Of a stretch of DNA of 64,000 bases, positions 10,974 to 26,034 are shown piece after piece. Under the pieces are notes generated by a model. It saw nothing but the letters and a program-made list of their open reading frames with translations, made no database searches and was not told the DNA's origin. The stretch comes from Desulfitobacterium dehalogenans ATCC 51507 (GTDB taxonomy: Bacteria; Bacillota; Desulfitobacteriia; Desulfitobacteriales; Desulfitobacteriaceae). The stretch is from contig NC_018017.1 of the NCBI RefSeq assembly GCF_000243155.2, positions 1,054,001-1,118,000 on the forward strand, in the 5' to 3' direction. A program made the position numbers and the translations under genes. Each line of letters begins with the position of its first letter. Position 1 is the stretch's first letter.

Positions 10974-12092
10974 TTAAGGAATTAAGTCGATAGCTTTTTT
11001 TAATTGTTCGATATCTTTATGGGTGTAACGCATCGTTACATCCTTTTTCGTGGAGTGTCCGATGATCATTTTTAACGCTTTTGGGTTCATTCCGACATCG
11101 TCGGCCATGGTTCCAAAAGTGTGCCGACCGTCGTGTGGGAGATGATCAAGGTTCAATTGTTTCATGAGCGGGTCCCAAATCTTTGAGCGATAGTAATAAT
11201 AGGAGATTTTCTCCCCATCAATGCAGATCAAATATTTGTTACCTTCCTCCATGCGTTTCTGGATCAGGGGAAGTATCCGTTTGTGGATGGGGATGATCCG
11301 GTCTTTTCCGGCACTTGTTTTTACCCCTCCGCGCATGACTCGCTGTGCTATGTCGATCTTGGCTGTCTCAATCAAGCATAGCTCAGTAGGACGCAGCCCG
11401 GAATAGATCATGATCAATACAGTATCCACTCCAAACTCATCAAGTCTTTCCCATAGCAGTTTGCGCTCAGAGTCATCAAAAGGTGCGTGGATGTCTTCTT
11501 TTCCCTCGATAGCCACATCAATTTCGAGATACTGCGCATAATTGCGCTCTCCGATGTCATTCATCATGGCATAGTCATACATCTGAGAATACAAATTCTT
11601 CATGTTGTTGAGAGTTTCACGGCCTTTGTCACTTTCCCAGATAATATTTTGCATGTGATCATACCTGATATCAAGCCAACGCATATTGTGCAGTTCATGA
11701 GAGTTTTTATAGGCTGCAGCGTAAGAACCCTTGCTCTGCTGAGATAGTTGCTTCCTTCGCCTAGGGTTGAATTTCCATGCATACCATTTTTTATAGAGTT
11801 CGGCAAATGTAAGAGTTGCAGCATCGAGTGGGCTGTGTTTTTTATTGTAATCGGCTAAAGCTATGTTTGCCTCAGCCTGGGTTTTAAATGACCCAATTCC
11901 CGTATAGATCTGCTTTAGCTTTGTGTTTTCGGGTAAGATCTTTGGGAGTTCTGCGCCGTTTGCGATAAACATTATAGCTTCCCCCGTTTCTTTATGCACA
12001 ATCTCCCAGCCCTCAGTCACTCTTGCATAAAATGGTTTTCTGCGCTTACCTTCGAGCTTGATTATCCCGCCATAACCGTTCGGATTTTTCAT
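10974..12092 (-). CDS. int: Tyrosine recombinase (prophage integrase)
   Basis: The protein has 372 residues from ATG 12092, which follows AAAGGAGGTGAG. The catalytic residues are visible: R234 (SGLRPTEL), H320 and R323 (HDGRHTFG), H346 (GHSTKKD) and the nucleophile Y356 (MRYTH). An N-terminal arm-binding region and a SAM-like core-binding domain precede the catalytic half. It integrates and, with an excisionase, excises the phage. It is the third gene of the leftward repressor-ImmA-int operon and marks the left prophage end. Confidence 0.95.
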   Translation of the reverse strand: MKNPNGYGGIIKLEGKRRKPFYARVTEGWEIVHKETGEAIMFIANGAELPKILPENTKLKQIYTGIGSFKTQAEANIALADYNKKHSPLDAATLTFAELYKKWYAWKFNPRRRKQLSQQSKGSYAAAYKNSHELHNMRWLDIRYDHMQNIIWESDKGRETLNNMKNLYSQMYDYAMMNDIGERNYAQYLEIDVAIEGKEDIHAPFDDSERKLLWERLDEFGVDTVLIMIYSGLRPTELCLIETAKIDIAQRVMRGGVKTSAGKDRIIPIHKRILPLIQKRMEEGNKYLICIDGEKISYYYYRSKIWDPLMKQLNLDHLPHDGRHTFGTMADDVGMNPKALKMIIGHSTKKDVTMRYTHKDIEQLKKAIDLIP

Positions 12093-12123
12093 TTCGATTC
12101 TCACCTCCTTTCGAATAAATGTT

Positions 12124-12591
12124 CTAATAAAGAAACGCATGTTCTGAATTGGGATAAAAAAATTTAGCACTTGACTTCTTTAACTCAGCCAGTTCCTCCG
12201 GAACTCCGCAGACGGTCGCTATTTCAAAAATTGATCTAAGTTCACATGTATACAGAACAGAGTCCGGCATAAGTAGCTCTACTGCGAAGGAATTCGCCTC
12301 CCGTTCAATTCGCTCAGCTGAAAAGAAAGTATGCATTCTGAGGAAGCCGGTATTGATCTTGGGATGAAGGATAACGTGCGCTAATTCATGAGCGAGGCTA
12401 AATCGTTGATCAATATAATCTAAGTCACTATTAAGATGAATAACCTGAATACGTTTGTAGCTGTGGCAGTAACCCCAGATATCTCCTAATGGCTCGATAA
12501 TGATCGGGATATTTTTGCGGTCGGCAATTTCAAAGGGTTCATTGGTGCGGTACATGTGTATAAGCTTGTCTACTTTTTCCTTTATGTCCAT
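12124..12591 (-). CDS. immA: ImmA/IrrE-family metallopeptidase
   Basis: The protein has 155 residues from ATG 12591, seven bases after GGAGG; a TTG six bases earlier is too close to that site. The zinc motif HELAH (SLAHELAHVILHP) and a downstream EANSFAVELLMP helix are typical of ImmA. In ICEBs1 and phage relatives, ImmA cleaves the partner ImmR repressor upon DNA damage or cell signals. The repressor gene ends 21 bases upstream, so the pair very likely works the same way. Confidence 0.9.
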   Translation of the reverse strand: MDIKEKVDKLIHMYRTNEPFEIADRKNIPIIIEPLGDIWGYCHSYKRIQVIHLNSDLDYIDQRFSLAHELAHVILHPKINTGFLRMHTFFSAERIEREANSFAVELLMPDSVLYTCELRSIFEIATVCGVPEELAELKKSSAKFFYPNSEHAFLY

Positions 12592-19084: not shown

Positions 19085-19837
19085 ATGCCTACAGCAGTTA
19101 CAACCACCCAAGCCCAACAACTTATTCTCGCCGGCATTGATACTACCGGCCTGACGGAGGCCGAGGTCCAAGAATTGGCCATTGTTATGGGGCAAAACTT
19201 CGAAGAAAGCCGCGACGGAATTAACTTCCGTCCTCAGCGATACAAAATCAATAAGGATGCCCAAGTGTTCGTCGACCCGTTTGGAAACTCCATAGATGAA
19301 TTGAAAGCCATTGTGCTTTTTAAGCAGAAAACCCGGGGACTCTGGGAAGAAGGCAATACAACTCCGCTTTGCTCAAGTTTCGATGGAATCATGGGCACTG
19401 ATGAGAACGGTAATTCTCGCCGCTGCGCTGAATGCCCCCAAAACGCCTGGGGATCAGGGAAAGAGGGCAGAGGCAAGGCATGTAAGGAGATGCGCCGGAT
19501 GTTTCTTCTGACCCCCGATAATGCGCTGCCAATTCAGATCTCCTTCCCGCCAACAAGCATCGGTGCTATTGATAACTTCTTTAGTGCCAGGCTTACTAAT
19601 CGGATTTCGGACATTGCTAGGCAAGTAAAATTCTCGCTAGTTCCAACCACTAATAATGGTTACAAGTTTGCACTTGCTGTTCTCAAAAATGGGGATGATG
19701 TGCCGCCAAAACAGATCTTAGATGTTAATAAGCTTCGGCAGAAGTTTGTAGACAGCTGGAAAAACATTGCCATTGATGACGAGGACTACATGCAGGATGC
19801 AGTGGAGGGTACGGGCGATGATCCAGAGCCATATTAA
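19085..19837 (+). CDS. Phage protein with cysteine cluster, possibly ssDNA-related
   Basis: The 250-residue protein starts at ATG 19085 after AGAGGAGG. The middle has four cysteines spaced like a metal site (PLCSSFDG, RRCAECPQNAWGSG, KACKEMRRMFLL). The acidic tail (DDEDYMQDAVEGTGDDPEPY) resembles tails of single-stranded DNA-binding proteins. It directly precedes, and overlaps, the Rad50-like gene. No recombinase of RecT, Erf or Beta type was found, so this is a candidate ssDNA-binding or annealing partner; that is inference. Confidence 0.6.
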   Translation: MPTAVTTTQAQQLILAGIDTTGLTEAEVQELAIVMGQNFEESRDGINFRPQRYKINKDAQVFVDPFGNSIDELKAIVLFKQKTRGLWEEGNTTPLCSSFDGIMGTDENGNSRRCAECPQNAWGSGKEGRGKACKEMRRMFLLTPDNALPIQISFPPTSIGAIDNFFSARLTNRISDIARQVKFSLVPTTNNGYKFALAVLKNGDDVPPKQILDVNKLRQKFVDSWKNIAIDDEDYMQDAVEGTGDDPEPY

Positions 19838-21272
19838 GCCGGACCGGTCGTTAAAGGCCCTAAAGCTCACGAACTTCCAATCCCACGGAAATACCCATAT
19901 TGAGTTTGCCGGACAAGGCTGCCTGACGGTCATCACAGGACCGTCGGACAGCGGCAAGTCCGCCATTATCCGGGCACTTAAATGGCTCCTGTATAACTCT
20001 CCCCGGGGTGATGGTTTCATCACGGTGGGGAAAAATGAATGCTCAGTTCAAGGGACTTATGACAATGGAACGGCAATAACCAGGACCCGGTCCCGGGGCG
20101 GAATCAACCGATACCAAATCGGTGATCAAACTTATGAAGGCTTTGGGACCGGCGTTCCCCTGGAAGTACAGCAGGCAACAGGTATCCGTGAACTGCGTAT
20201 CGGTGACCAAACATATCTTTTAAACCTCTCCGACCAGCTAGCCGGGCCCTTTTTGGGGAACGACAGCACCCCGGCCCCGGCCCGTGCAAAGGTGCTGGGC
20301 AAACTGGCCGGCACGGAAGAGATGGATCACGCCGGGAAAGAAGTAGGTACAGACCTATTCCGGGCTAAGAGGGAACGGGAAGGCCTGGAGAGCTATATCG
20401 AATCAACCGAGAAGGCCTTGGACGGATACGCTTGGATTCCGGTAAGGGAAGCGCATTTGATCGAACTGGATAGCATTATCGAAGACGTAAAGCGAGACCA
20501 GGAGGGAATAGCGAAGCTGAAAGAACTGCATGAGCAGTTCATGAGGTTAGCAGGGGAGGTTCGGAGCGTAAAGGCTGAGATTAGTCGGCTACGACCCGTC
20601 GCTGAGGGATTGGCTTATGTGCGCCGTATAGAACGTGACTCTGCGGAACACGGGAGCCTAAGTCTCATGAACCAATCGTATATCGAAGCTTGGTCCAAGA
20701 TTTCTGATGCCAATATAATACTTCACCAGCTGGTTAACCTTGATTCGGCCATAGCGGTTGTGGACGCAACCCAGGAAGGATTGACGCTTGGCACTAAGCT
20801 CAACGCCGCTAAAGCAGAATATCTGTATGCAGTCGGACTCAAAACAGGAACCCAATCTCGTTTAAAGGTTCTTGACCAAAACTATGAATCGGTCATGCCA
20901 CACCTTCTGGCTGCCGAGACAGAGGCATTCAATGTAGATAAGCTGGACTGCTTTTTAATAAACTATGAACACGCCTACCAGGGAGCCTTGTCCCTGCGTC
21001 GCAAGGTCCAAAGCACGGCGCGGGTGGAGGAGGCTTGGGAATTAGCCGCGGCTCTTCCCGAGAAGGTGGAGAAAGTCAAGTCGTTGCGGTCGGAACTTAC
21101 GAATATCGGTTCGCTTTCGAGGGTGAGTCTGAACTATGCCGAACAGGCCAATCTTGCCCAAAAAGACACAGAGTCCCTGGAGACTGAATACATCCAGCTC
21201 ATGAGTGATTTAGGCAAGTGCCCAACCTGCGGGGGAGATATTCATATCGAGAAATTGAAGGAGGTCATTTAA
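19818..21272 (+). CDS. Rad50/SbcC-like ATPase, N-terminal half ending at the zinc hook
   Basis: The protein has 484 residues from ATG 19818, after GGAGGG. It opens with the Rad50 N-terminal ATPase lobe: KLTNFQSHGNTHIEF and Walker A GPSDSGKS (residues 41-48). A long helical/coiled-coil region follows (about 200-460), ending in CPTC (468-471), the form of a Rad50 zinc hook. Walker B, the ABC signature and the return coil are absent. They are found in the gene at 21559-22221. Together with the SbcD-like gene the parts form an Mre11-Rad50-type complex for double-strand end processing. Confidence 0.85.
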   Translation: MIQSHIKPDRSLKALKLTNFQSHGNTHIEFAGQGCLTVITGPSDSGKSAIIRALKWLLYNSPRGDGFITVGKNECSVQGTYDNGTAITRTRSRGGINRYQIGDQTYEGFGTGVPLEVQQATGIRELRIGDQTYLLNLSDQLAGPFLGNDSTPAPARAKVLGKLAGTEEMDHAGKEVGTDLFRAKREREGLESYIESTEKALDGYAWIPVREAHLIELDSIIEDVKRDQEGIAKLKELHEQFMRLAGEVRSVKAEISRLRPVAEGLAYVRRIERDSAEHGSLSLMNQSYIEAWSKISDANIILHQLVNLDSAIAVVDATQEGLTLGTKLNAAKAEYLYAVGLKTGTQSRLKVLDQNYESVMPHLLAAETEAFNVDKLDCFLINYEHAYQGALSLRRKVQSTARVEEAWELAAALPEKVEKVKSLRSELTNIGSLSRVSLNYAEQANLAQKDTESLETEYIQLMSDLGKCPTCGGDIHIEKLKEVI

Positions 21273-21274
21273 TC

Positions 21275-21556
21275 ATGTCCATAGACAATGTTGAACATAG
21301 AATTTCCAGCCTGAAAACCAAATTGGAGCAGAAGAAGAATGAGCGTACCCGAGCCGAAGCCAATCTGGAGACCGCTGAAAAGCAGCTCCAGGCCGTGACG
21401 GACAAAATTAAGGCCTTGGGGTATGAGCCGGAGCAGCTTCCGGCTGTAATCGAAGAATTGGAGAAGAATATTGAGGTCAATCTGGCTCAGGCGGAAAAAA
21501 TCCTGGCTGAAATGGAAGGACTCACGACGGAGCAGGTTCTTGAGCAGGTGGTGTGA
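21275..21556 (+). CDS. Small coiled-coil protein between the Rad50 halves
   Basis: The protein has 93 residues from ATG 21275, after AAGGAGG. It is almost entirely heptad-patterned coiled coil (NVEHRISSLKTKLEQKKNE and on), with a short GYEPEQLP break. Lying between the N- and C-terminal Rad50-like genes, it could supply or stabilise part of the missing coiled coil. This role is inferred only from position and structure. Confidence 0.65.
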   Translation: MSIDNVEHRISSLKTKLEQKKNERTRAEANLETAEKQLQAVTDKIKALGYEPEQLPAVIEELEKNIEVNLAQAEKILAEMEGLTTEQVLEQVV

Positions 21557-21558
21557 TT

Positions 21559-22221
21559 ATGACCATAAGTATTCTTGAGGCCGAAGCCAGGGCAAACCGC
21601 CACAAGGCCACCCTGGACCAAGCCAAAGGCAAGCGTGACCTACTCCTCCAGCAGAAAACCCAAAAAGAAGCCGAGCTGTCCAAGGTTACCCAGAATATCG
21701 CCACGTGGGAGCAGGTGCAACTCCTGCTCTCCCACTCCAGCCAATATGCCCGGGAGCAGCTGAAGCAAAAGATTGAGGAGACGGTGACCGCCGCCCTCAG
21801 GAGTATTTTCGAGGATCCCGGCATTAGCTTTGCCATTGAATTAGGCCAAAGTGGGGGAAGCGCCACTGCCGAGTGGCAAGTCATCTCTTCCTATCAGGAT
21901 TACACTGTCGCCGCCAATCCTGAGGCGGCCCGGGGTGGTGGGGTGACGGACGTTGTGTCCCTGGCCCTGAGGCTGTCGTTGTTGGAATTGGCCAGGCCAA
22001 AGCATGAGGGACCGGTTATCTTGGACGAACCAGGAAAGATGATCTCTCGAGAGTTTTTGCCCAATGTGGCGGCGTTTTTGAAGCGGTATGCTGAGAAAAC
22101 CGGACGGCAAATCATTATGGTAACTCATCACGGGGTGTTGGCCGATGCGGCGGATGTGGCTTGGTATGTGACGCAGGAAAAGGGTGTCAGCCGGGCAGAG
22201 AGGATCGGGGGTGAGGTGTAG
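21559..22221 (+). CDS. Rad50/SbcC-like ATPase, C-terminal half
   Basis: The protein has 220 residues from ATG 21559. An N-terminal coiled coil (residues 1-75) leads to an ABC-type C-terminal lobe: an RGGGVTDVVSLALRLSLLEL signature helix, Walker B GPVILDEP, and an H-loop in IIMVTHH. No Walker A is present. It complements the 19818-21272 protein, so both are needed for one composite ATP site. It overlaps the SbcD-like start by one base. Confidence 0.85.
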   Translation: MTISILEAEARANRHKATLDQAKGKRDLLLQQKTQKEAELSKVTQNIATWEQVQLLLSHSSQYAREQLKQKIEETVTAALRSIFEDPGISFAIELGQSGGSATAEWQVISSYQDYTVAANPEAARGGGVTDVVSLALRLSLLELARPKHEGPVILDEPGKMISREFLPNVAAFLKRYAEKTGRQIIMVTHHGVLADAADVAWYVTQEKGVSRAERIGGEV

Positions 22222-23276
22222 TGGTGGACAAATTTATCGTAACAGGCGATTTGCATTTCCGGTCAGAGAATCCCCGGAGTAGGAAAGACAATTATCGTGA
22301 TGCGCTGCTGGTTAAGCTGTATGAGGTTTTTCTGATAGCCCAAGAGCGTAGAGCGAAAGCAATCATTATTCCCGGAGATATTTTTGACTCATCTAATGTT
22401 AGCTTGCCAACCATTATCAAGCTTGCCAGCTTCTTGGATGATTGCAAAGCAAAGTTTGCTATAGATGTATTGGTCATTTCGGGGAATCACGATCTGCCGG
22501 CAGGAAACAAGGGAGCTATTTCCCGGACACCCTTTGGTTTGCTGACAGAACTTGAGTACATCCATGATCTTGAGAGATTAGATGCGAGCAGACTGATGCT
22601 GCTACCTACCGATATGTTTGAGTCATCGGTTACTGGATGCGGATTCGATTATCAGACCGACACGCCAGATGGAGCCGATCAATATATGGTAACTCAGTCA
22701 TCTTTTCCTGAAAGTTATCCACGCATCCATGCCTTATCTTCCGAAGATCATCCACGTATCCATGTTGTCCACTCCATGCTCCTAGCGGCTGCGCCGTCAT
22801 TCCCAATGAGGCACACCTTGATTGACGATGTAGAGACTAATGCAGACATCATCATCTCCGGCCACTATCATGACGGCTTTGGCATCATCCGGCGCAAGGA
22901 TGGCAAGCTCTTCATTAACCCCGGAGCACTCTGCCGATTATCGGCAAGCCAAGCCGAAATGAGCCGTACTGTCCAGGTTGCCCTGCTCACGGTCAACAGC
23001 AAAACAGACTTCCATGCCGAGCTGATCCCCCTGCAGTCTGCCCGGCCGGCAGAAGAGGTTTTGGACAGAGAAGCTATCGTTGAGAAGAAGGAGCATGAAA
23101 ACTGGTTGGAGAGCTTCTTCGATAGTCTCCAGCAGGAGGGGGAAGAGAAGTTTTTAGAGGTCCGAGAGATCATTGAGAAAATCGCAACATTAGAGAATGT
23201 CCCTTCTGGAGTGAAGCTGGAAGCTCTGCTACGAATCGGCGAGGCCAGGGAGAAGCTTGGGAGGGGTGCAGGGTGA
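22221..23276 (+). CDS. SbcD/Mre11-like metallophosphoesterase
   Basis: The 351-residue protein carries the full calcineurin-like set: GDLHF (9-13), GDIFD, GNHD, a VVHSM histidine and GHYHD, which bind two metals at the nuclease site. In Mre11/SbcD the nuclease trims DNA ends with Rad50/SbcC. GTG 22221 overlaps the stop of the C-terminal Rad50-like gene, so the subunits are translationally coupled. The C-terminal tail (about 275-345) is helical and may bind the coiled coil. Confidence 0.88.
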   Translation: MVDKFIVTGDLHFRSENPRSRKDNYRDALLVKLYEVFLIAQERRAKAIIIPGDIFDSSNVSLPTIIKLASFLDDCKAKFAIDVLVISGNHDLPAGNKGAISRTPFGLLTELEYIHDLERLDASRLMLLPTDMFESSVTGCGFDYQTDTPDGADQYMVTQSSFPESYPRIHALSSEDHPRIHVVHSMLLAAAPSFPMRHTLIDDVETNADIIISGHYHDGFGIIRRKDGKLFINPGALCRLSASQAEMSRTVQVALLTVNSKTDFHAELIPLQSARPAEEVLDREAIVEKKEHENWLESFFDSLQQEGEEKFLEVREIIEKIATLENVPSGVKLEALLRIGEAREKLGRGAG

Positions 23277-23818
23277 CGAGAAAGAGGCCCTTTTGGAAAA
23301 GGGTAAGTTTTTGGAAAACAGTAGCCTCAGTGTTCATAACTTGCGCCATACTCTTGAACTCTTTAAGCTTCATCATGCTGAAGCAGCGAATATCAATGCT
23401 GCAGACTGAAATCCAGATGCTCAAGAGCGATCAGAGCAATTTGACAGAAAAACAGAGAGACATCACAAATTCAGTCAATAGCTTTCTGGATACCTGGCAG
23501 ATGGGAGTCTTTGAAGCAACAGCCTATTCTCCGCTGGACGATAGAAACGGGATGAACTCCTGGGGTGACGGGACTGTAATGAGTTCAGGCGCGTCGACGC
23601 TGGAATATATCGATACCGGAATTTCCGTTGACTCAAGAATCGTCCCGCTGGGAAGCAAGATTTTCATAAAGGGAATGGGTTGGCGTATAGCCACAGATAC
23701 CGGAGGAGCCATCAAAAATTATAAACTGGATATTCCAATGTGGACGTTTGATGAAGCAATACAATTTGGCAGAAAGGATGTGATTGCAGTATGGCCACGG
23801 CAACAGCAGCGCGAATGA
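23273..23818 (+). CDS. Membrane-anchored 3D-domain protein
   Basis: The 181-residue protein starts at GTG 23273, overlapping the SbcD stop by four bases. An N-terminal membrane anchor (about 14-36) and short coiled coil precede a 3D (Asp-Asp-Asp) domain: FEATAYSP, SRIVPLGSKIFIKGMG, ATDTGGAIKNYKLDIPM. This fold occurs in MltA-like peptidoglycan lytic enzymes and YabE/YocH-type proteins. A wall-active domain inside a DNA recombination operon is unexpected. It overlaps the helicase gene by 28 bases. Confidence 0.8.
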   Translation: MTRKRPFWKRVSFWKTVASVFITCAILLNSLSFIMLKQRISMLQTEIQMLKSDQSNLTEKQRDITNSVNSFLDTWQMGVFEATAYSPLDDRNGMNSWGDGTVMSSGASTLEYIDTGISVDSRIVPLGSKIFIKGMGWRIATDTGGAIKNYKLDIPMWTFDEAIQFGRKDVIAVWPRQQQRE

Positions 23819-26034
23819 AAAAAGGAAAAGAGACGGTTAAGCCTGTCGCTACTCTGGCCGGAAAAATCATATCTGTGCGGTTTCATAATCCTCAAAACGG
23901 TTACTCCGTAATCTCTATAGAGCCTAAAGACATGGTGGAAACGGGTATGGTCTCCTGCAGTGCCGTCGGCAATCTGGCGGCGGTCAGGGTAGGGGATGAA
24001 TACGAATTCGCCGGCGAGTGGAAAGAGCATCCGCAGTACGGGCGGCAGTTCGCATTCTGTAAGGCCGATGTGGTTCTGCCCAAGGAAAAGACCGGGGCAG
24101 CCACCTATCTGGCCACCCTGGCTTATGGGGTAGGGTTTGCAAAGGCGAAACGGATTGTCGATAGGCTAGGGGACGATGCCCTTAACCGAATCATTGAGGC
24201 CCCGGCTTTACTGGATCAGTTCCACTTTCTTTCTCCCCAGCAGCGGGAAGAGATTCAGGAAGGATTGCTTAAAAACACCAGGCTTGCGGAGCTGGCAGCC
24301 CTCATATGCAAAGAAGGTGTCGGCATTGGCACGGCAACAAGAATTTTCAACACCTACGGCCAGGCCAGTGTGTCTATCGTTAAAGAAAATCCCTATGTGT
24401 TGGCTGATGAGGTGTACGGCATCGGCTTCAAGGTAGCCGACAGGATCGGGATGGGGTTGAGCATCGCTCCGGATTCGCCATATCGGGTAGAATCGGCCTA
24501 TATGTACGCTCTCCGGGAAGCCGGCAATGATGGCCATGTCTATCTGACCCCAAAGGATACCATCGTTGCCCTGGATGGGTTGCTGGGTAAACAGTCCATG
24601 GTGGGAGTGAGCAACATCAAAGATGCTTACGCTGAGCTTGAGCAGCGGGGGCTGGTTTGCCGGGAAGGAGACGCTATTTATGTAGCCTCCATGTTGGCCG
24701 AGGAAAAGCAGCTGGCCCGAGATATTGTCCGGCTGGCTCAGATGGACGGGAAATATTTGTCCACGGATACCGAGCAAAAGCTGGAGGAAGTCACTGAAGC
24801 CATGCAGGCAGAATTCGGCGTTATCTATGCCCCGGAGCAGAAAGAGGCCATCAAGAAGAGCTTTTATAAATCATTGTCAGTAGTGACAGGTGGCCCGGGA
24901 ACCGGGAAGACGACTGTCATTAAAGGCATCATTGAGGCTTATCGGAAAATAGCCAGAAGCAACCTGATTATGCTAGCGGCACCGACGGGCCGGGCGGCGA
25001 AGAGGATGACGGAGGCCACCGGATGCGATGCCTCTACCATCCACCGACTGCTCAAATTCAACCCTATGATCAATGGGTTTGAGCACGATGCGGATAACCA
25101 ACTTCCTGCCGGTCTGTTGATTGTGGATGAATACTCCATGAGTGACTTACACCTAGCTAAGTGCCTCTTTGAGGCAGTACCAAGTGACATGTTGATGGTC
25201 ATCGTTGGTGACGTGGATCAGCTCCCCAGCGTCGGGCCGGGAAAAGTACTGGAGGACATTATTGAATCCCGTCAGGTCATCACAACCCGGCTAAAGTTCA
25301 ACTACCGGCAAGCCTCCGGTAGCCGCATTGCCCTTGAGGCATCCCGGGTGGTTGAGTTCGGAGAATGCCGCCTTTACCAGGATGAAAAGGATTGGAAGAC
25401 TATCCTTGAAGATGAGCCGGAAAAGGCTGTCACAAGAATCAAGGCCGAAGTAAGGGCGGCTCTGGCCCAGGGGTTGGGGATCATGGATTTTCAAGTGCTG
25501 GCCCCCATGAAAAAGGGGCTTGTTGGGGTAGATAACCTGAATGAAGTGATTCGGGAAATTGTGAATCCACCCGACGTATTGAAGCCGGAAAAGAAGACTG
25601 GTAAAGATAAATTCTTCCGTCTTGGTGACAAGATCATGGTGATCCGCAATAACTACAAGCTGGGAGTGTTTAACGGAGATATCGGGGTGATTCAGGGAAT
25701 TGATTCCAGTAGTATTGCTGTCGACTTTGAAGGGGAAATGGTTACGTTTAGCGAGGACAACATCAACGACCTAACCCTGGCCTATGCAAGCACAATCCAC
25801 AAAAGCCAGGGGTCAGAGTTCCCTCTCGTGATCATGATTATTATGCGGAGTCACTACATCATGCTGCAGAAAAATCTATTTTACACTGGCTTTACCCGGG
25901 CTAAGCAGCGCTTGGTGCTGGTGTGCCAGGAGAGTGCCGTGAAGCGGTGCCTGGACAATGCCGAGAAAAAAGAACGGCACACGCTCTTACGGGATAGGAT
26001 CATAGCCTATGCAGGCGCCAGCCAATCAGCTTAA
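23791..26034 (+). CDS. RecD2-like ATP-dependent DNA helicase
   Basis: The 747-residue superfamily 1B helicase has an OB-like N-terminus, tandem helix-hairpin-helix motifs (about 100-230), Walker A GGPGTGKTT near residue 367, APTGRAAKRM, the LLIVDEYSMSD motif II, GDVDQLPSVGPG, and the C-terminal ASTIHKSQGSEFP motif. These mark stand-alone RecD2 (no RecB or RecC). ATG 23791 is used here; ATG 23815 is a shorter alternative. It probably unwinds DNA during phage replication or recombination. Confidence 0.92.
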   Translation: MATATAARMKKGKETVKPVATLAGKIISVRFHNPQNGYSVISIEPKDMVETGMVSCSAVGNLAAVRVGDEYEFAGEWKEHPQYGRQFAFCKADVVLPKEKTGAATYLATLAYGVGFAKAKRIVDRLGDDALNRIIEAPALLDQFHFLSPQQREEIQEGLLKNTRLAELAALICKEGVGIGTATRIFNTYGQASVSIVKENPYVLADEVYGIGFKVADRIGMGLSIAPDSPYRVESAYMYALREAGNDGHVYLTPKDTIVALDGLLGKQSMVGVSNIKDAYAELEQRGLVCREGDAIYVASMLAEEKQLARDIVRLAQMDGKYLSTDTEQKLEEVTEAMQAEFGVIYAPEQKEAIKKSFYKSLSVVTGGPGTGKTTVIKGIIEAYRKIARSNLIMLAAPTGRAAKRMTEATGCDASTIHRLLKFNPMINGFEHDADNQLPAGLLIVDEYSMSDLHLAKCLFEAVPSDMLMVIVGDVDQLPSVGPGKVLEDIIESRQVITTRLKFNYRQASGSRIALEASRVVEFGECRLYQDEKDWKTILEDEPEKAVTRIKAEVRAALAQGLGIMDFQVLAPMKKGLVGVDNLNEVIREIVNPPDVLKPEKKTGKDKFFRLGDKIMVIRNNYKLGVFNGDIGVIQGIDSSSIAVDFEGEMVTFSEDNINDLTLAYASTIHKSQGSEFPLVIMIIMRSHYIMLQKNLFYTGFTRAKQRLVLVCQESAVKRCLDNAEKKERHTLLRDRIIAYAGASQSA

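Follow-up and report, generated by a model that had tools for sequence, protein, structure and literature searches.

A putative Mre11-Rad50 system with its Rad50 divided among three genes, in a prophage of Desulfitobacterium dehalogenans and in Bacillota chromosomes

Background

Rad50 and SMC proteins are usually described as single self-folding chains, and canonical SbcC is likewise one chain. In the established picture of Mre11-Rad50, closure of the ATPase heads is driven by ATP and controls the nuclease. Fusions of SbcD and SbcC (Mre11/Rad50) were reported by Yoshida et al. (2011) in Mimivirus, in plasmids and in Bacillus phage 0305phi8-36; the authors did not observe one P-loop segment in the proteins of this phage and of Anaerostipes (PMC3175470); the genome of phage 0305phi8-36 is 218 kb (PMC2147016). 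Here we analyse four adjacent genes, named N, MID, C and D, of a prophage in Desulfitobacterium dehalogenans ATCC 51507, located in a stretch of 64,000 nucleotides of contig NC_018017.1 (positions 1,054,001 to 1,118,000), hereafter the window; coordinates are those of the window unless they follow the handle of another locus (L; genomes are marked G). We consider, with a probability of about 0.8, that the four genes encode one heteromeric complex of the Mre11-Rad50 type, in which Rad50 would be assembled from the separate polypeptides N, MID and C.

Division of the Rad50 motifs between N and C

The four genes lie on the forward strand as a tight, nearly gapless operon, with the same open reading frames as in a preliminary description of the window. 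N (19818-21272, 484 aa, ATG start) represents the N-terminal half of Rad50, with lobe I, Walker A, the outgoing coil and the whole zinc hook. MID (21275-21556, 93 aa, ATG start) is a conserved helix-turn-helix coiled-coil protein, and its gene is preceded by a strong ribosome-binding site, GAAGGAGGTCATTTAATCATG (AGGAGGT). C (21559-22221, 220 aa, ATG start) represents the C-terminal half, with a short coil, the signature position, Walker B and the H-loop histidine; D (22221-23276, 351 aa, GTG start), whose start codon overlaps the stop codon of C by one base, encodes a predicted SbcD/Mre11-like nuclease.

Walker A of the ABC head, GPSDSGKS (residues 41-48; 19938-19961), is found in N, with G41, G46 and K47 invariant in 84 N proteins. 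The zinc-hook motif CPTC (residues 468-471; 21219-21230), with C468 and C471 invariant in the same set, is followed by only 13 residues, and long helices precede it in the model of N. A CxxC lies no more than 40 aa from the C-terminus in 154 of 162 N proteins, where the truncated ORFs L080, L106 and L148 were not scored as hook losses. The split had been placed at the zinc hook; it is real, although the cut lies just after the hook, which N retains whole. Walker B, GPVILDEP (22009-22032; ILDEP is residues 154-158), is found in C, with D156 and E157 invariant. At the ABC signature position C carries RGGGVTD (RGGG is residues 125-128; 21931-21942) in place of an LSGG-type motif; GGG is invariant in 27 C proteins, and RGGGxxD, with no LSGG-type signature, was seen in 145 of the C proteins examined. 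The position is glycine-rich as in the aligned Rad50, which has a serine before GG where the split family has R. Coil, signature and Walker B had all been ascribed to C, and all these positions are indeed present, the signature differing from the usual LSGGE. As Walker A is present only in N, and the signature and Walker B only in C, a partition kept in relatives, neither protein can make the ATP site alone, as first proposed, and N and C would have to pair.

Profile comparisons gave the same assignment. N matches residues 298-371 and C residues 869-952 of the phage SbcC family phrog_77 (length 967), that is, opposite ends, and each falls into a PHROG of its own, phrog_16465 for N (6e-62) and phrog_15167 for C (3e-57). 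N also matches AAA_23 (4e-12), and Rad50 structures are the top matches of the C profile (3aux, 4e-12). D matches Pfam Metallophos (1e-10) and the SbcD-like phrog_100 (3e-13), and its phosphoesterase motifs DxH, GD, GNHD and GHxH are invariant in eight sequences; a D gene is present in most loci. N scores 16.6 bits with the SbcC model TIGR00618 against a cut-off of 478.5, a strict one that none of 398 genomes passes, and C was not among the TIGR00618 matches listed.

MID family and the predicted composite head

The MID alignment has 145 members sharing the turn LGVKPEEL..EI; 99% have its proline and 95% its isoleucine. Of 43 split-positive genomes tested, 41 have MID; the two without a match are G198, whose C gene is on a 4-kb contig, and G330, with a very distant C. 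Searches gave no MID in six system-negative genomes (0/6) or in three genomes with a coil-less fusion described below (0/3), and where a genome has a second C gene (G114, G152 and G337), it also has a second MID gene. In the phage contig L168 the tail of a D+N protein behind the hook matches MID over nearly its full length, weakly (17 bits), and this protein is probably a D+N+MID fusion. On these comparisons MID is a conserved gene family and not filler.

AlphaFold2 was used to model N alone from an alignment of 84 sequences (pLDDT 81, pTM 0.39), giving a head, helices at residues 166-202, 206-304, 308-352 and 360-464, and then the hook. A linked N-MID-C model was made from L126, where the three genes are in one frame, set apart only by stop codons and a few bases, and the natural stops were read as residues, giving a chain of 805 residues with 53 other rows in the alignment. 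It reached pLDDT 77 and pTM 0.50, and both halves of the head were well predicted. Superposed on Methanocaldococcus jannaschii Rad50 (3av0_B) with VIA-align, the model aligned over 353 of 365 residues, drawn from model range 1-792, with Z 28.4 and rmsd 4.9. It thus has the Rad50 head fold, although SMC heads score equally and the fold alone cannot separate Rad50 from SMC. Since the linked model covers 353 of the 365 residues of 3av0_B, it supports, but does not prove, that the N and C lobes jointly form one complete Rad50-like head.

MID in the linked model forms two helices, of 41 and then 25 residues, joined by a turn that coincides with the conserved motif; its model confidence is about 55-75. 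Most likely MID restores the returning coil between the hook and C. A possible alternative, to which we give clearly less weight, is that the complex is real and MID is a subunit of its own with a regulatory or loading function, such as a hook cap or a bridge to another repair protein: the turn motif GVKPEEL looks more like a specific fold than a plain coil, the model confidence is limited to the values above, and MID stays genomically with N in some genomes and with C in others. Against this, MID is nearly always encoded between the hook and C, is absent where coil and hook are absent, and probably stands behind the hook in the L168 fusion.

Several points speak against a Rad50 assembled in this way. 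The parts were modelled in one chain, which favours contact, with a pTM of 0.50; the usual signature serine is absent from C; and the coils are unbalanced in the long N forms, with about 300 residues out and about 135 back, while a balanced coil would fit the short phage N proteins of only 290-380 aa. Co-evolution analysis (mean-field, reduced alphabet, Neff 67) did not yield a clear topology for the coil. The altered signature, and the fact that the genes can be unlinked, would also suit N and C acting unpaired in separate functions, such as a role of N as a RecF-like ATPase that works with a different partner. We regard this as improbable: the ATP-site motifs are complete only jointly, N and C co-occur throughout, the coil-less fusions join the two head halves, and the linked model forms one head.

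Recurrence of the split

More than 100 loci, in phages, in viral contigs and in genomes, show the same split at identities as low as about 25%, a recurrence far beyond chance; Bacillus phage vB_BboS-125 and Microbacterium phage Magritte are among the carriers. A profile survey, which counts loci and represents some genomes by more than one, gave the gene orders D-N-MID-C (89), N-MID-C-D (27), N-D-MID-C (11) and D+N fused followed by MID-C (4). Natural D+N fusions were seen in L158, L159, L161, L171 and L172; in L161 MID and C remain separate downstream genes. The six viral contigs L176-L178 and L180-L182 are arranged as RecA-N-D-MID-C, and their N proteins are short (314-355 aa). The genome of vB_BboS-125, as published, has an unannotated SbcD-like gene (L001:9223-10203) in the space separating gp36 from gp37.

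Programmed frameshifting or stop read-through could in principle fuse N, MID and C into one protein, as the genes are adjacent, often overlap by a few bases, and are all in one frame in four loci. This is very improbable, as all nine combinations of the MID and C frames relative to N were found, and in four clostridial genomes C stands alone in the order folD-C-rny with D-N-MID on another contig (L090, L131, L139 and L143 with L193-L196). Insertions at the junctions of L001, L006 and L161 likewise oppose it. The gene inserted in L001 (7383-7955) encodes an AP2 domain, that in L006 (7448-7798) is a Cys-rich ORF and that in L161 (5219-5935) is a 238-aa ORF; a further inserted ORF, L190:1743-2876, we take by eye to be sliding-clamp-like. 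The inserted genes are unrelated ones. In the four clostridial genomes, where the gene beside C was named folD by eye, the D-N-MID genes lie before a RimO-like gene, and the break in the operon falls precisely at the MID-C junction. The genes are dispersed further in Magritte (OR553905.1; L002, L003 and L189), with N at 93.8 kb, D at 119.7 kb and C at 0.3 kb of the 133-kb genome; its N has no CxxC at the end.

That a single-chain sbcC was broken by frameshift, deletion or sequencing error, leaving MID as debris, has next to no chance of being right, for although the layout resembles an ordinary one-chain sbcC cut twice, the identical three-way cut recurs across many independent genomes, where the frames vary, ribosome-binding sites are present, the parts are fully conserved and genes can be dispersed. 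The preliminary description had left frameshift and deletion to be excluded by comparison with other phages, and the loci found do so. Because of the nine frame combinations, the junction insertions and the unlinked or dispersed genes, the split is, judging from these comparisons, old and real, and not a frameshift, a read-through product or decay. N, MID and C are thus separate genes and not parts of a single-polypeptide Rad50.

Single-chain relatives and phylogeny

A single fused gene in relatives would have spoken against a four-part system. The search for single-chain relatives yielded only three coil-less D-N-C fusions, in genomes of one family (L046:4764-6818, L047:6152-8254 and L048:6083-8170; 684-700 aa), which contain D, the N head and the C head, lack coil, hook and MID, and are nested in the split clade. 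Each may represent a minimal one-chain Mre11-Rad50. No coil-bearing single-chain relative was found among the 398 genomes and the fetched loci, and a search of viral contigs for coil-less fusions found none. Next to the fusion in L047 is a 1151-aa ORF, which begins like AddB as judged by eye.

A tree was built from 97 N+C head pairs, including L047 of the fusions; canonical SbcC reaches only 2-17 bits with the profiles of N and C and was therefore not used as the root. L047 is placed within the chromosomal clade on a long branch, with support of 82 at the nearest fork and 97 at a wider fork. Because of this nesting the fusion looks derived and the split ancestral within the split family, with the placement itself being unsure. 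A branch of their own is made up by the window and its sister phages.

Chromosomal and prophage context

In 70 chromosomal loci the upstream neighbour is recA and the downstream one rny (RNase Y), frequently accompanied by ymdB and cinA, and the usual layout is recA-D-N-MID-C-rny; these four gene names are putative, taken from recognised sequences used as BLAST queries and not from an annotated record. The carriers include alkaliphilic Bacillaceae, Thermoactinomycetaceae, Tissierellia, Tepidanaerobacteraceae, Peptoniphilaceae and others, and six viral contigs also have recA beside the quartet. The system is carried by 64 of the 398 genomes of the phylum (by three as the fusion) and a strong canonical SbcC by 167, with both in only two (Fisher p = 2e-14, a value that ignores shared ancestry, with counts limited by TIGR00618, which may miss divergent SbcC). 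The two with both are the window host and G141, each with the phage gene order, and in a sample of the host's family only the host itself carries the system (1 of 46). Because of this near exclusion of SbcC, the two exceptions and the family sample, the quartet looks like a resident equivalent of SbcCD in many Bacillota and the window copy like an extra one brought by a phage. Thus the arrangement, first described from this window, is apparently no peculiarity of phages: on many Bacillota chromosomes it seems to be the resident Mre11-Rad50, beside recA, and it can account for the apparent absence of SbcC in many Bacillota.

In the window the quartet lies within the replication and recombination module of the prophage, followed by a 3D-domain gene, a RecD2-family helicase gene and a primase-like gene. 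The prophage is marked by an integrase (10974-12170, reverse strand), terminase, portal and contractile-tail sheath genes, and is also present as IMG/VR contig 2507262031_000001; the host genome is complete (4.32 Mb, one contig). The RecD2-family helicase (23791-26034; TIGR01448, 753 bits) is syntenic with the quartet in sister phages. Directly upstream of N is a 250-aa gene (19085-19837, phrog_23155), which is retained there in most sister phages and may be part of the same module.

Proposed mechanism

The preliminary description held that the locus must be a four-part Mre11-Rad50 system. The conserved separate genes, the co-occurrence of MID, the C genes encoded in trans, the D+N fusions and the modelled head all support such a system, but "must be" is too strong. 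In the complex as we propose it, N would give lobe I (Walker A and Q-loop) together with the zinc hook and the coil leading out to it, and C would contribute lobe II (signature, Walker B and H-loop) and the end of the returning coil, the two pairing into one ABC head; MID would fill the missing stretch of the returning coil, from the hook to C. Two N:C heads would then close on ATP over DNA and control a nuclease dimer of D (Mre11) at ends or hairpins. The chromosomal operon beside recA would be a resident DNA-end-processing enzyme that replaces SbcCD, while the prophage copy may serve phage recombination and replication next to the RecD2 helicase and the primase.

More speculatively, and in our opinion rather doubtfully, the quartet may define a class of Rad50 with obligate N-MID-C assembly, ancestral in many Bacillota, in which the chain breaks by the hook and around MID are gates that open the coil ring for DNA or regulate assembly. 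In any case, a chain usually thought continuous is here cut at the hook with a conserved third piece added, and the split has been retained through deep divergence in both phages and chromosomes. A naturally split Rad50 allows the two halves of the head, the hook and the coil to be mixed and mutated independently, which offers a direct test of whether the chain has to be continuous.

Comparison with known systems

In the open literature we found neither a split Rad50 nor a split SbcC described, which is weak evidence of novelty as most subscription papers were outside the scope of the search. The quartet resembles archaeal Rad50 (M. jannaschii 3av0) and bacterial SbcCD in the ABC head fold, in Walker A and B and the Q-loop and H-loop positions, in the CxxC hook beyond a coil and in the adjoining Mre11/SbcD nuclease gene. 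It differs from them in having three Rad50 genes including the extra MID, RGGGxxD instead of LSGGE, and a very weak match to TIGR00618. The archaea-specific SMC-related protein (ASRP, NF045487) is another ATPase of the Rad50/SMC superfamily, to which N has a weak match (1e-10); however, it is one chain of 593 model positions, and N scores 40 bits against a cut-off of 300. The families phrog_16465 and phrog_15167, which contain N and C, are listed as unrelated "exonuclease" and "ATPase" families and not as two halves of one protein.

The fusions reported by Yoshida et al. are similar to the quartet in the fusion of D before N, as seen also in the five D+N loci above; a split Rad50 was not described in that paper (PMC3175470). 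The segment missing there is found here as a separate downstream C gene, together with MID. A separate C gene would explain the "missing P-loop segment" of the Bacillus phage SbcD-SbcC fusion.

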